Assembly (NCBI RefSeq): GCF_002163855.1
Contig: NZ_CP019332.1
Location: 1,777,145-1,841,144, forward strand
Reading direction: 5' to 3'
DNA: 64,000 nt
From: Winogradskyella sp. PC-19
Lineage (GTDB): Bacteria; Bacteroidota; Bacteroidia; Flavobacteriales; Flavobacteriaceae
Every line of letters begins with the position of its first letter. The first letter of the stretch is position 1. A program made the translations under genes and the position numbers. The notes under the pieces were generated by a model. The model was given only the letters and a program-made list of their open reading frames with translations, was not told where the DNA came from and ran no database searches. Positions 40,824 through 45,894 of the stretch are shown here, in pieces.

Positions 40824-41888
40824 CTACTTCTTCAACACCTCAAATATATTTCGCAAATCCTTTTTAAAAGGCAAGTGGTCGGCACGTCCTTTTTTAAAGA
40901 TGTCGTTACTATTTCCCTGTCCTTTTCGCAACGCTTTTTGCTCCTCAAATGACAATTCTATAATTTCCATACAATTGGTCGAACAGCAATTATTCATTTT
41001 TTCTTTACAATTATCACATTGGATAAAAAGTAAATGACAAGCTTCATTAGCACAATTGGTATGCATATCAGCTGGCTCTCCACATTGATGGCAGTTAGAA
41101 ATTACGTCGTCTGAAATTCGCTCCGAACGACGTTGGTCAAACACAAAATTTTTACCTAGAAACTTATTTTCTAAACCTTTTGCTTCAATTTGCCGTACGT
41201 AGTTGATTATACCACCTTCAAGCTGAAATACATTTTTAAAGCCTTTGTGTTTGTAGTATGCACTTGCCTTTTCGCAACGAATACCGCCAGTACAATACAT
41301 GACTAATTTTTTATCTTCTTTATGTTCTCTTAAATCTTCTTCAATTAAATCCAGAGACTCTCTAAATGTATCAACGTCTGGCGTTACAGCATTTTTAAAA
41401 TGACCAATTTCACTTTCGTAATGATTACGCATATCTACCAATACGGTATTTGGGTCTTCAATGAGTTCATTAAATTTTTCGGCATTAACATGTACGCCTT
41501 TATTTGTAACATCAAAAGTGTCGTCGTTTAAACCATCAGCTACAATTTTATTTCGAACTTTTACCTTTAATTTTAAAAAGGCAAAATTATCATGCTCAAC
41601 AGCAATATTTAATCTTACGTTTTCAAGAAAAGTAATGGAATCTAGGTGATTTTTAAACACTTCAAAATTATCTGCAGGAACAGAAAGCTGGGCATTAATT
41701 CCTTCGTGAGCTACGTAAATTCGCCCAAGGACGTCCATGTCGTTCCAATTTATAAACAAGTGATTTCTAAAAAGTTCGGGGTTTCCGATTTTTGCGTATT
41801 TGTAGAAAGAGATTGTCAAACGGTCTTTGCCCGCTTTTTCGATAAGTTCTGCTCTTTCTTTAGCGCTTAAGTTATTGTACAGTTGCAT
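40824..41888 (-). CDS. trhO: tRNA uridine(34) hydroxylase (rhodanese-related)
   Basis: A 354-residue protein of the YceA/TrhO family, which makes 5-hydroxyuridine at the wobble position of tRNA. The N-terminal acylphosphatase-like part has HEGINAQLSV. The rhodanese domain has the catalytic loop VMYCTGGIRCEKASAYY (Cys199) and QLEGGIINYV. A cysteine-rich C-terminal region (NCHQCGEPADMHTNC, CDNCKEKMNNCC) probably binds zinc and is usual in this branch. It is divergent from recA across 381 bases. Confidence 0.92.
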   Translation of the reverse strand: MQLYNNLSAKERAELIEKAGKDRLTISFYKYAKIGNPELFRNHLFINWNDMDVLGRIYVAHEGINAQLSVPADNFEVFKNHLDSITFLENVRLNIAVEHDNFAFLKLKVKVRNKIVADGLNDDTFDVTNKGVHVNAEKFNELIEDPNTVLVDMRNHYESEIGHFKNAVTPDVDTFRESLDLIEEDLREHKEDKKLVMYCTGGIRCEKASAYYKHKGFKNVFQLEGGIINYVRQIEAKGLENKFLGKNFVFDQRRSERISDDVISNCHQCGEPADMHTNCANEACHLLFIQCDNCKEKMNNCCSTNCMEIIELSFEEQKALRKGQGNSNDIFKKGRADHLPFKKDLRNIFEVLKK

Positions 41889-41950
41889 GCTATACTAATG
41901 TTTTAAGGTTAAAGAATTTATTTTCAGGTACAAAGGTAATTTTTTAAACG

Positions 41951-41986
41951 AAAAAAGCACTTTGATTTTTACCAAAGTGCTTTTTT
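41951..41986. terminator. Strong intrinsic terminator between the divergent trhO and recA genes
   Basis: AAAAAAGCACTTTG (41951-41964) and CAAAGTGCTTTTTT (41973-41986) form a perfect 14-bp stem. It lies between two divergently transcribed genes, so neither of them can be its upstream gene. It must end another transcript; a minus-strand RNA from about 42165 fits. Confidence 0.85.
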
Positions 41987-42165
41987 GAGGACTAACTCGT
42001 TGTTAATATATAATTACATCATACTAGAACGAGTTAACCTGCATCAGCTTTACAACAGCCGAAAACTAAAACAGCTGCTATTTTGCCTAAAGTTTAAATG
42101 AAAATCCAATTTCTAAAATTTTTAACCTTAAACGGAAGCTTTTTCATAGCAATTTTTTCCTTTTT
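41951..42165 (-). ncRNA. Predicted small minus-strand transcript with interrupted small ORF (ECF sigma target)
   Basis: A roughly 210-base RNA is predicted on the minus strand from an ECF-type promoter (plus 42174-42203) to the terminator at 41951-41986. It holds a frame starting at the ATG at 42147: 17 residues (MKKLPFKVKNFRNWIFI), a TAA at 42094-42096, then in the same frame 19 more residues (TLGKIAAVLVFGCCKADAG) to TAA at 42034-42036. The second part looks like a hydrophobic export or lipoprotein segment. The inverted repeat TAACTCGTT/AACGAGTTA (41993-42001, 42028-42036) follows. It may be a regulatory RNA, or a small membrane peptide gene broken by a stop. No family recognised. Confidence 0.5.
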
Positions 42166-42173
42166 CAATTAGT

Positions 42174-42203
42174 AGATGCAGAAACTATAAAATGGTTGCG
42201 TCT
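42174..42203 (-). promoter_or_regulatory. ECF sigma-type promoter, inverted copy upstream of recA
   Basis: Read on the minus strand: AGACGCAACCATTT (plus 42190-42203), 9 bases, TGCATCT (plus 42174-42180). GCAACC and ATCT are then 16 bases apart, the normal -35/-10 spacing of ECF sigma promoters. The same two blocks at the same distance lie before the sigma factor operon (43317-43346). This copy points away from recA, towards the small transcript at 41951-42165. Confidence 0.65.
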
Positions 42204-42269
42204 TAAATTGTAATCTGTTAAAAGAAGTATTATTTTTACCTTCAAGATTAATAGCAAAAAACTGAATAT

Positions 42270-43277
42270 ATGAGTAGTGAAAAAGATGCAAAATTAAAGG
42301 CGCTTAAACTAACGCTAGACAAATTAGACAAGGCTTACGGAAAAGGAACGGTAATGAAAATGAGTGACCAAGCCATTGAAGATGTCGATGCGATTTCTTC
42401 GGGTTCGCTTGGATTAGATATTGCATTAGGCGTTGGAGGATATCCTAGAGGCAGGGTTATTGAAATATATGGCCCAGAATCTTCTGGTAAAACTACATTA
42501 ACGTTGCACGCTATTGCAGAGGCGCAAAAAGCTGGAGGCATTGCTGCATTTATTGATGCTGAGCATGCTTTTGACCGGTTTTATGCCGAAAAGTTAGGTG
42601 TTGATTTAGAAAATCTAATTATTTCTCAACCAGATAACGGCGAACAAGCTCTAGAGATTGCAGACAATTTAGTACGTTCAGGCGCTATAGACATTATTGT
42701 TATAGATTCTGTAGCTGCTTTAACACCAAAAAGTGAGATTGAAGGAGAAATGGGAGATTCTAAAATGGGACTACACGCACGTTTAATGTCACAAGCGTTG
42801 AGAAAATTAACGGGGTCAATCAGTAAAACCAATTGTACGATGATTTTCATTAACCAATTACGTGAAAAAATTGGTGTTATGTTTGGAAACCCAGAAACGA
42901 CTACCGGAGGAAATGCACTAAAATTTTACGCTTCTGTAAGATTGGATATAAGACGTTCTACTCAGATTAAAGATAGCAATAGCACTGTTATGGGTAACAA
43001 AACCAGAGTTAAGGTTGTAAAAAACAAAGTCGCTCCTCCTTTTAAATTAGCAGAATTTGATATTATGTATGGTCAAGGTATTTCTAAAGTTGGTGAAATC
43101 TTAGATATTGCTGTTGAGCACGATATTATAAAAAAGGCAGGGTCATGGTTTAGCTATGAAGATACAAAATTAGGTCAAGGCCGAGATGCTGTAAAGGCAT
43201 TAATAAAAGATAATCCTGAATTAATGGATGAACTAGAAGAAAAAGTAAGGGCAAAAGTCAATGAAATAGAAGCCTAA
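42270..43277 (+). CDS. recA: Recombinase A
   Basis: The 335-residue RecA drives strand exchange in recombination and the SOS response. It has the Walker [10 protein letters not shown] (about 69-77), [24 protein letters not shown] covering the L1/L2 region, and [21 protein letters not shown] near the C-terminus. The acidic tail is short. A near-consensus -7 box, TACCTTCA, is at 42237-42244. It ends in its own terminator. I see no clear LexA-like palindrome in its upstream region. Confidence 0.97.
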
Positions 43278-43279
43278 CA

Positions 43280-43311
43280 AAAAAATCCTGAAAAATTTCA
43301 GGATTTTTTTG
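43280..43311 (+). terminator. Intrinsic terminator of recA
   Basis: AAAAAATCCTGA and TCAGGATTTTTT (about 43280-43309) form a perfect stem with an AAAATT loop, directly after the recA stop and followed by T residues. Confidence 0.88.
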
Positions 43312-43316
43312 TTTTT

Positions 43317-43346
43317 AGACGCAACCATTTAACCCTTTTTGCATCT
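43317..43346 (+). promoter_or_regulatory. ECF sigma-type promoter of the lipoprotein-sigma-anti-sigma operon
   Basis: AGACGCAACCATTT (43317-43330), 9 bases, TGCATCT (43340-43346). GCAACC and ATCT are 16 bases apart. The inferred start is about 30 bases before the lipoprotein ATG at 43381. ECF sigma factors commonly read GCAAC/GGAAC-type -35 boxes and often drive their own operon. An inverted repeat, CTTGCTT-A-AAGCAAG (43345-43359), lies over the start region. Confidence 0.65.
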
Positions 43347-43380: not shown

Positions 43381-43788
43381 ATGAAAAAATTACTCGTATT
43401 ATTTATTTTTGGAACACTACTATCATGTGAGATTAATGATGGAAACGAAATAAACTTTGAATTGCAGATAATGTCAGTTACAGGTGTTGATATACCTGTC
43501 GAGTTTACATTAGGGGAAACCTATGAAATTACGGTTGACTATTTAAGACCTAATGGATGTCATGAATTCAATGATTTTATTATTCAGCCTAACGGAAACA
43601 CAAGAACTGTAGCCGTAGTTGATACCGTCTACAACGACCCTAATTGTTCAGTAAATGCTGAAGAGGCTTCTGTATCTTTCAATTTTTTAGTACTTAGTAA
43701 TGGCCCATATATTTTTCAGTTTTATCAAGGAACAGGTACAAATGGTGAAGACCAATACCTAATAGTAGAAGTGCCTGTCGTAGAATAA
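43381..43788 (+). CDS. Small lipoprotein, first gene of the ECF sigma operon
   Basis: A 135-residue protein with a lipoprotein signal, MKKLLVLFIFGTLLSC (Cys16), and a compact beta-rich mature part (FELQIMSVTGVDIPVEFTLG, VSFNFLVLSNGPYIFQF). No family recognised with certainty. Cysteines at HECHEF-like position GCHEFND and DPNCSVN could form a disulfide. It lies 25 bases before the sigma factor gene and behind the ECF-type promoter, so it is likely expressed with the sigma factor and may act as envelope-stress effector or signal sensor. Confidence 0.75.
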   Translation: MKKLLVLFIFGTLLSCEINDGNEINFELQIMSVTGVDIPVEFTLGETYEITVDYLRPNGCHEFNDFIIQPNGNTRTVAVVDTVYNDPNCSVNAEEASVSFNFLVLSNGPYIFQFYQGTGTNGEDQYLIVEVPVVE

Positions 43789-43813: not shown

Positions 43814-44356
43814 TTGAGTTTAAAAGAACTCATCAGAGACTGTAAAGAAAAGAATGCTAGTGCTCAGAGTCAATTATACAAGCTGTACGCCAGTAGACTG
43901 TTCTCCTTGTGCCTAAAGTATTCAAAAAACTACGTAGAGGCTGAAGATAATTTACAAGATGCATTTGTTACTATTTTTAATAAAATAGAACAGTATGAAA
44001 ATAAAGGCTCTTTTGAAGGTTGGATGAAACGCATAGCTATTAATACTGCATTAAAGCGTTATCGAGAAGTGCAGGTTTATAGCTTAATTGATGAAAGTGC
44101 GATTGAAAATGTAGATATAGAAATTGATAATGATGAAGTAGACTTAGATTTTTTACTTCAAATTATACAAGATTTACCAGACCGTTATCGGTTGGTCTTT
44201 AACTTATATGTTATGGATGGTTTTTCACATAACGAAATTGCCAAAATGTTAGAAATATCTAATGGCACATCAAAATCAAACCTAGCACGTGCAAGGATGA
44301 TTTTAAAACAAAAAATTGAAGATTATAAAGCGAGTGTAAATTCGCAATCCTTATAA
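43814..44356 (+). CDS. ECF-type RNA polymerase sigma factor
   Basis: A 180-residue extracytoplasmic-function sigma factor. Region 2 is in YVEAEDNLQDAFVTIF and GSFEGWMKRIAINTALKRYR; region 4 is in DLPDRYRLVFNLYVMDGFSH and NEIAKMLEISNGTSKSNLARA. The start is TTG at 43814 (MSLKELIRDCK); no upstream ATG is in frame and relatives begin at this point, so the rare start is accepted. The next gene begins two bases after its stop and encodes a predicted anti-sigma fusion. It is the best candidate reader of the GCAACC-type promoters at 43317 and 42203. Confidence 0.92.
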   Translation: MSLKELIRDCKEKNASAQSQLYKLYASRLFSLCLKYSKNYVEAEDNLQDAFVTIFNKIEQYENKGSFEGWMKRIAINTALKRYREVQVYSLIDESAIENVDIEIDNDEVDLDFLLQIIQDLPDRYRLVFNLYVMDGFSHNEIAKMLEISNGTSKSNLARARMILKQKIEDYKASVNSQSL

Positions 44357-44358
44357 AA

Positions 44359-45894
44359 ATGAGCGATAAAAAACATATCGACAGACTGTTTCAAGAAAAG
44401 TTTAAGGACTTTGAAGTTATGCCAGACGAAAAGCTTTGGGAAGGCATTGAAGCTAGGCTTGACAAGAAAAAGAAAAAACAGCGTATTATCCCGATTTGGT
44501 GGAAATTTGGTGGCGTTGCAGCTGCACTTGTACTTATGTTTGCTATTGGTACTACTTTTAATAACACTGACGATACGCCAGTGGTTGTAGATTCTGATTC
44601 TAATAATACTGAAATAGAAAACAGTAAAAAATCAGACAAACACGCCACTTTACAAAAAGAAAATACGACTATCGCTTCAGATAACTCGAGTAAAAATGAG
44701 TCAAACAAAAAAGAAAATAATACATTAAAAAAATCTAAAGAAGTTTATTCTGAATCACCTGCCTTAAAATATAAATCTAAAGATAATTCATCTTTTGTTG
44801 CTACTCGAAATAAAACCCTACCAGAAAAACAGACTAATAAACTTTCTACTATTAACGAAACTAAGTCTAATAGAAATGTTGTTGCATCAACTTCTAATAC
44901 AGACAAAAATAAAACAGAAACAGAAAACAAAGTTCAGCTTAAATCTCAAGAAGAGATTAAGGCTATTTTAGAATCTAATTCAAATACAAATAATGCTGTT
45001 GCAAAAAACAAAACAGCTAACAACAAAAGCAAAAAAAGTGAAAACAGTGAGTCTATTGAAACTATTGAAAATACTACTATAGACAAACAAAAAGAAACTG
45101 GTCAAGATATAGAAGAAGCTATTGCTGAAGCAAATACTAATAATGAAGAAGAAAAAGAAATTCGCCGGTGGAGTATTGCACCCAATGTTGCGCCGGTTTA
45201 TTTTAATTCTTTAGGAGAAGGTTCTTCGCTAGATGCTCAGTTTGATTCTAATAACACCTCTAGTGATTTAAGTATGAGTTATGGTGTAAAAGGAAGTTAT
45301 GCTGTAAACGAAAGGCTTAAAATCACTGCTGGAATTAATCGTGTTAGCTTTAATAACACTACTAATGATGTCATTGCGTTGTCAGATAATACGTTTTCTG
45401 CAAACGCTGCCGCAGCCTCAAGCAGATTGCAAAATGTACAACTCAATAGTGATGTTAATCATGCCTCTTTAATGCTTATTAGTCGCCCAAGAATTGCGGA
45501 TAACTCGGTGCCAGAAGCTATAAATACATTACAAACCGGAAGCCTAGAACAACGTTTTGGTTTTATAGAGATTCCTTTAGAAATAGAGTATCGTCTAATA
45601 GACAAAAAACTTGGTGTAAATCTTAGCGGCGGTTTTAGTACACTATTGCTTAATGAAAATGAAATTCTTGCAGATATCAACGGCCAAAGCACTCTAATTG
45701 GCGAAGCTAACAACTTTAATAACACAAGCTTTAGTGCCAATTTTGGTGTTGGACTTGACTATAATTTATCTGAAAAGATTAATATCAATCTTGAACCAAA
45801 ATTCAAGTATCAATTAAATACATTCAATAACACATCGGGGGATTTTAGACCGTTTTTTATTGGTGTGTATACAGGTTTAAGCTTTAAATTTTAG
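44359..45894 (+). CDS. Anti-sigma-like inner-membrane domain fused to an outer-membrane beta-barrel
   Basis: A 511-residue protein with an unusual plan. Residues 1-45 are cytoplasmic and resemble a short anti-sigma domain (HIDRLFQEKFKDFEVMPDEKLW). A membrane helix spans about 47-65. Residues 66-268 form a low-complexity Asn/Lys/Ser/Glu linker long enough to cross the periplasm. Residues about 270-511 look like a small outer-membrane beta-barrel ending in a terminal phenylalanine (FFIGVYTGLSFKF). A protein of this kind would span both membranes. Dual membrane-spanning anti-sigma proteins (Dma, with sigma partner Das) are known from Bacteroides thetaiotaomicron, where they affect vesicle formation. 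Its place two bases after the sigma gene fits. Confidence 0.8.
   Translation: MSDKKHIDRLFQEKFKDFEVMPDEKLWEGIEARLDKKKKKQRIIPIWWKFGGVAAALVLMFAIGTTFNNTDDTPVVVDSDSNNTEIENSKKSDKHATLQKENTTIASDNSSKNESNKKENNTLKKSKEVYSESPALKYKSKDNSSFVATRNKTLPEKQTNKLSTINETKSNRNVVASTSNTDKNKTETENKVQLKSQEEIKAILESNSNTNNAVAKNKTANNKSKKSENSESIETIENTTIDKQKETGQDIEEAIAEANTNNEEEKEIRRWSIAPNVAPVYFNSLGEGSSLDAQFDSNNTSSDLSMSYGVKGSYAVNERLKITAGINRVSFNNTTNDVIALSDNTFSANAAAASSRLQNVQLNSDVNHASLMLISRPRIADNSVPEAINTLQTGSLEQRFGFIEIPLEIEYRLIDKKLGVNLSGGFSTLLLNENEILADINGQSTLIGEANNFNNTSFSANFGVGLDYNLSEKININLEPKFKYQLNTFNNTSGDFRPFFIGVYTGLSFKF

Follow-up and report, generated by a model that had tools for sequence, protein, structure and literature searches.

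Two matching putative ECF-type promoter sequences flank recA in opposite directions in the 64,000-nucleotide stretch of DNA analysed here (the window), the nearest relatives of which are Winogradskyella. We consider it highly probable that both sites serve as promoters for the ECF sigma factor encoded at 43814, and that this sigma factor is under Dma-like control, feeds back on its own operon and serves a small regulon as well as a short unit on the minus strand. Promoter use, the identity of the sigma factor, the feedback and a role in the envelope are what we infer from the sequence.

The sequence AGACGCAACCATTT-N9-TGCATCT has exactly two matches in the window, i.e. 43317-43346 on the plus strand and 42203-42174 on the minus strand, in agreement with the original prediction of an exact pair at these positions. 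A third match was not found in the window, even with up to 3 mismatches allowed, and 100 dinucleotide shuffles of the window contained no match. The plus copy (AGACGCAACC...TGCATCT), which the exact match and the relatives mark as the putative ECF-type promoter of a lipoprotein-sigma-anti-sigma operon, is followed by a lipoprotein-like ORF (43381), the sigma gene (43814) and the anti-sigma gene (44359). The minus copy, a putative ECF-type promoter on the same two grounds, is directed away from recA toward trhO, and is followed by a short stretch without a large ORF, a terminator-like sequence (41980-41951) and trhO (40824-41888). recA itself (42270-43277, plus strand) lies between both copies.

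Of 520 relatives detected with the sigma protein, we examined the loci of the best 80. In 74 of these best 80 loci, a relaxed form of the motif is present at most 1300 nt upstream of the sigma gene, which supports the prediction that the plus copy heads the operon, while the remaining 6 lack even the relaxed motif before sigma. The conserved core in relatives consists of ACGCAACC, a T-rich stretch and gCATCTa, and the tract just 3' of GCAACC is variable. Thus, the predicted blocks are identical in the window, but what is conserved across relatives is shorter than proposed. The length from GCAACC to ATCT is 26 nt in 66 of the 74 sigma-operon copies among the best 80 and 25 nt in 8, i.e. a conserved -35/-10 pair with near-fixed spacing precedes the sigma operon, as in an autoregulated ECF promoter. 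Also among the best 80, 16 of the 20 loci without a recA signature in view have the relaxed motif; as judged from distances, where the interval between recA and sigma is too short for the lipoprotein gene, the motif lies ~50-130 nt before sigma. In the 60 loci from this set with recA in view, the plus copy was detected in 58, the minus copy in 41 and both in 40, while a same-strand control upstream of recA gave 0/60. The minus copy is absent in the other 19 of these 60 loci, one of which (L019) has little upstream sequence.

Enrichment was measured in the genomes of relatives, and the motif is enriched there: CGCAACC-N15-CATCT has 337 sites in 120 Flavobacteriaceae genomes compared to 7 for the reversed control. 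With four spacer lengths permitted, a search of 15 whole genomes found 73 sites compared to 17 for the reversed control, and 61 of the 73 share a single total length of 27 nt. A sigma orthologue (E ≤1e-30) is present in 104 of the 120 genomes, and the motif occurs in 97 of these 104 compared to 0 of the 16 without the orthologue (Fisher 7.9e-15), a co-occurrence that is confounded by co-loss during genome reduction because most of the genomes without the sigma factor are small (1.3-2.6 Mb, one 3.1 Mb). The 7 sigma genomes without a strict match include one (G090) with a GTATCT variant. In a sample of 198 genomes from the phylum, the motif was found in 11 of 12 genomes with an orthologue (E ≤1e-50) and in 50 of 186 without, and the sigma-less genomes of this sample contain 56 motif sites compared to 30 control sites. 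Overall, the motif recurs in excess where the sigma factor is present in the family, as expected of an autoregulated ECF promoter. Moreover, in upstream regions hand-picked from the sigma matches in the 120 genomes, the relaxed motif precedes 20 of 20 orthologues (13 strictly) and 0 of 20 paralogues. The motif, thus, follows the sigma gene across genomes, supporting that the 43814 sigma factor is the likely reader, as had been proposed. Separately, one sigma-containing genome of the phylum sample (G235) has 25 motif matches, and of 20 places listed, 16 carry copies of just two sequences; these are apparently repeated elements.

We examined the neighborhood of 43 sites, of which 40 are from the 73 sites in the 15 genomes and 3 are from the 5 of W. 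haliclonae; of the 33 among the 73 that were left out, 23 belong to the recA/sigma locus and the other 10 have off-length spacers, and the 43 include two promoters of sigma operons (L118, L138). An ORF that starts with ATG and has at least 28 codons begins at most 60 nt downstream of 35 of the 43 sites, at a median distance of 23 nt. Together with the near-fixed spacing and the excess over the control, these ORFs agree with the prediction that the blocks are -35/-10 promoter elements. By a strict rule, lipoproteins follow 18 of the 43 sites, which is below half of those examined, compared to 118 of 885 background ORFs (Fisher 7.9e-6); this enrichment was made harder to obtain, because the background allowed three start codons per ORF and included sigma-neighbour lipoproteins. 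By eye, others among the site-adjacent ORFs encode barrel-like proteins, small membrane proteins of 35-57 aa or lipoproteins that the rule did not catch.

Many of the 120 genomes hold 2-4 sigma matches at E ≤1e-30. Upstream of the six most distant paralogues (L223-L228), AGGCAACC...CGTCT is found in 6/6 by eye, and GGCAACC-N15-GCGTCT has 66 sites in 54 of the 120 genomes compared to 4 for the control. This sister motif differs from the CATCT motif at few positions. In the accessible part of a report on Flavobacterium psychrophilum, which belongs to the same family as the host of the window, the SM6 promoters are described by an ECF-type motif with a CGT box in the -10, and YceA as well as a sigma/anti-sigma operon are among the entries given for SM6 (PMC9723704). 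SM6 was rejected as the window motif, the -10 of which is CATCT and not CGT. The CGT form is the one found at the paralogue; therefore, SM6 more likely belongs to a sigma factor of this paralogous type.

One alternative is that both sites are promoters of a paralogous sigma factor that also drives the 43814 sigma operon. The several sigma matches per genome and the similarity of the sister motif would allow this, as would one minus site (L037) with a CGTCT variant; however, the relaxed motif precedes all the orthologues and none of the paralogues examined, and it tracks the orthologue across genomes, making a paralogous reader very unlikely. That the blocks are instead two half-sites of a transcription-factor operator, and not a -35/-10 pair, is highly improbable: repeated blocks at near-fixed spacing are compatible with an operator, but these blocks are not palindromic, they are oriented with respect to the start codon (median 23 nt downstream in 35/43), and their occurrence tracks an ECF sigma gene. 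Moreover, ECF promoters usually have AAC in the -35, which fits the AAC found here. Finally, the inverted arrangement of copies ~1.1 kb apart might suggest a chance repeat or inverted repeats at the ends of a mobile element enclosing recA. We assign this a practically negligible probability, since the spacers differ and single copies of the motif are found at many other loci; in our view, the conservation of both copies around recA in 40 of the 60 relatives (from the best 80 of 520) refutes it.

The operon of the 43814 sigma factor, our preferred reader of both sites, begins with the lipoprotein-like ORF (43381-43788, plus strand; 135 aa), which has no match in Pfam or NCBIfam. The ECF sigma factor (43814-44356, plus strand) is recognised by Sigma70_r2 and r4_2, and its gene co-occurs with the motif; among the 25 NCBIfam models listed, only the general sigma70-ECF superfamily scores above the cut-off. 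The third gene (44359-45894, plus strand) encodes a Dma-like anti-sigma candidate of 511 aa, as judged by Pfam barrel matches above the cut-off, the structural model and the layout. The AlphaFold model has helices at residues 4-34 and 46-67 with a pLDDT of only 52-70, a region of very low confidence at 68-250, and barrel strands at 271-510 in blocks with a pLDDT of 89-97, except for 55-80 at 341-390; the mean pLDDT overall is 63. The best Foldseek match is OmpA (E 4.5e-08). A candidate of 402-628 aa is encoded just downstream of sigma in 80/80 loci (best 80 of 520) and, in all 80, the 19-mer of highest hydrophobicity (mean 1.46-2.89) begins within residues 41-52 and the last residue is F.

As described in the accessible part of PMC13088901, Dma (dual membrane-spanning) proteins have an N-terminal anti-sigma domain, a single TM helix, a long disordered tether and a C-terminal OM beta-barrel. 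According to the model, the 44359 protein has this layout, i.e. N-terminal helices, a TM-like helix, a low-confidence tether and a C-terminal OM barrel; moreover, as in Dma systems, its gene adjoins that of an ECF sigma factor in the window and in the loci of relatives. Likewise, the Das/Dma system of Bacteroides thetaiotaomicron (ECF21; Dma1, Dma2) has, in that part of the report, a sigma factor beside an anti-sigma factor of this layout (PMC13088901). By contrast, the system here is found in Flavobacteriaceae, is usually linked to recA and has a lipoprotein-like gene in the operon, and the sequence comparison adds a predicted promoter sequence and a predicted regulon for the flavobacterial sigma factor; the word "motif" is absent from the main text of the Dma2 paper.

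The minus copy had been predicted to lead into a short transcription unit. This prediction gains comparative support, and in many relatives the unit contains a microprotein gene, which as a coding gene is broken in the window. In 31 of the best 80 of 520 loci, a small ORF ending in D/E-G-G lies beside recA on the opposite strand, with such an ending required in the search, and the relaxed minus motif accompanies 28 of these 31. Of the other three, L037 has the CGTCT variant, and L021 and L040 have no recognisable ECF promoter within reach and, therefore, may use another promoter. In 13 close pairs, again from ORFs selected for the D/E-G-G-like ending, the peptide frame has a pN of 0.049 and a pS of 0.289, while the other two frames have no excess of silent changes, showing that purifying selection acts on the peptide frame in relatives. 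A profile search yielded one clear full-length match (E ≤0.0017) in each of 35 of the 120 genomes, all of which have the sigma factor, and the next matches, from E 0.0049, are partial. In the 30 loci examined out of these 35, the relaxed motif upstream, recA and DGG are present in 30/30, with the motif 52-242 nt before the ORF, and the trhO signature and a conserved 3' arm are each present in 28/30. In a separate pattern search with hits in 23 of the 120 genomes, peptide, motif and recA were found together in 22, and none of these in the remaining one (L164).

We assembled 56 distinct peptides of 27-31 residues, for which a nearby motif and a DGG-like ending were required, so that conservation of the last residues and the promoter is in part by construction; C25, K26 and G14 were not imposed. 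Exactly 30 aa are found in 48 peptides, in which C occupies position 25 in 42, K or R position 26 in 47 and G position 14 in 41. Mean hydropathy exceeds 1.6 over 15 residues in 21 of the 56, which at most hints at membrane association. A lipoprotein was considered and rejected, as 6 of the 48 have S or F in place of the cysteine and the preceding stretch, by eye, has no steady lipobox. Four peptides had no match in NCBIfam at E ≤1 and a single match in Pfam (E 0.087), which is below the cut-off. In the literature, with supplements and most subscription papers outside the scope, we found no naming of the motif or the peptide, and the accessible parts of PMC12596196 and PMC12045153 contain nothing on either. 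The gene for this ~30-residue peptide ending in C-K-x-D-G-G is apparently undescribed.

The stop codon of the microprotein gene is paired in a predicted hairpin in 47 of 48 distinct sequences from relatives (mean z -4.8). In an alignment that mixes two registers, 85.7% of cells pair compared to at most 50.9% when slid, and of 500 shuffles, 3 attain as high a paired percentage and 3 as high a covariation score. Only one pair is changed on both sides, a number equalled or exceeded in 485 of the 500 shuffles; because the covariation evidence is thin, the hairpin rests on folding. The minus unit had no Rfam match at the gathering score in five sources including the window, only sub-threshold ones. 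A terminator was recognised in 49 of the 56 units of relatives. A TAnnTTTG box, which is given as a housekeeping promoter consensus in the accessible part of PMC9723704, precedes trhO in 49 of the 56 compared to 2 of 56 for the reversed pattern.

In the window, the region homologous to the gene for the 30-aa microprotein (42034-42147, minus strand) has, by eye, an in-frame stop, an internal deletion relative to relatives and a DAG instead of a DGG ending. Despite the broken frame, the window retains the promoter, the 5' leader, the stop-codon hairpin (41989-42042, minus strand; -14.6 kcal/mol) and, recognised by sequence, an intrinsic terminator-like element that would end the short unit (41951-41980, minus strand). 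On the 3' side of the terminator, a TAnnTTTG box (41931-41939, minus strand) is the likely housekeeping promoter of trhO (minus strand), which encodes a tRNA U34 hydroxylase (NCBIfam NF001133, above the cut-off). Because the peptide frame is broken, the unit of the window would yield at most an untranslated or decaying RNA; it is probably non-coding, and a role as RNA is possible. The 5' leader persists in the Winogradskyella relatives L004, L007 and L009-L011, in which the ORF has been lost or altered; in L012, both are gone. As a side observation, L007, L009 and L010, which lack the small ORF, keep the promoter and a GGAAAnAATTGCTATGA-like 5' leader and, by eye, have other stem-loops instead.

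It could be asked whether the minus unit is primarily a regulatory RNA or a trhO leader, with the small ORF secondary. We regard this as possible but as the less probable reading. The stop codon lies within a hairpin in 47 of 48 sequences, the window and some Winogradskyella kept promoter and 5' leader while losing or altering the ORF, and trhO is recognised beside the unit in 28 of 30 loci, all of which would fit such an RNA. We take F. psychrophilum YceA to belong to the trhO family. In the accessible part of PMC9723704, YceA is listed under an ECF-type motif, which would link trhO to this kind of control. However, the peptide frame is under purifying selection and 48 of the 56 distinct peptides have exactly 30 aa; in addition, a terminator and a separate TAnnTTTG box, each in 49 of 56 units, set trhO apart, an anti-terminator or alternative pairing was not seen by eye, and covariation in the hairpin is thin. 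We therefore favor a short, separately terminated unit that encodes a microprotein in many relatives.

In Das/Dma systems, the anti-sigma factor inhibits its sigma factor, and vesiculation rises when it is lost. In the mechanism that we propose, the Dma-like anti-sigma factor would span both membranes, hold the sigma factor and presumably sense the outer membrane. Once freed, a release that we infer, the sigma factor would transcribe its own operon from 43317-43346, closing a feedback loop, and a small regulon of predicted lipoproteins, small membrane proteins and outer-membrane barrels. It would also transcribe the short, separately terminated unit from 42203-42174, which in many relatives would give the ~30-residue C-K-x-D-G-G peptide. 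Our guess is that this peptide is a stress-induced, membrane-associated microprotein that acts via its fixed C-terminus. A more specific idea, to which we give a small chance, is that the DGG microprotein is a dedicated, membrane-anchored component of the envelope-stress circuit, with a fixed C-K-x-D-G-G end that a binding protein or protease of the periplasm recognises and that modulates sigma release from the Dma-like anti-sigma factor, with the stop hairpin coupling translation to RNA stability. If true, the DGG microprotein would represent a new kind of effector in sigma-factor pathways that is disappearing in part of Winogradskyella.

The envelope sigma factor sigma-E of E. coli transcribes itself, envelope genes and the small RNAs MicA, RybB and MicL. 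Similarly, the flavobacterial sigma factor is predicted to target its own operon, genes of the envelope and a short unit that is conserved; unlike the sigma-E small RNAs, this unit encodes a selected peptide in relatives. For a sigma factor of the Dma type, a kind with roles that are still poorly understood, the analysis provides a recognition sequence that can be tested and a short list of predicted regulon members, and the CATCT motif can be told apart from the sister motif of the paralogue by few bases. Moreover, a conserved microprotein gene that lies beside recA and is tied to the same promoter may offer a way into outer-membrane monitoring in Bacteroidota.

Two minor observations concern neighboring genes. 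The 35-57 aa ORFs after the motif at L130, L131 and L139 resemble single-helix membrane proteins and are possibly another microprotein of the regulon. Finally, the start region of trhO, at 41880-41900 in the window and in many relatives, has a TTAGTATAGCATGCAACTGTACAAT-like sequence that, by eye, is strikingly conserved upstream of the start codon.
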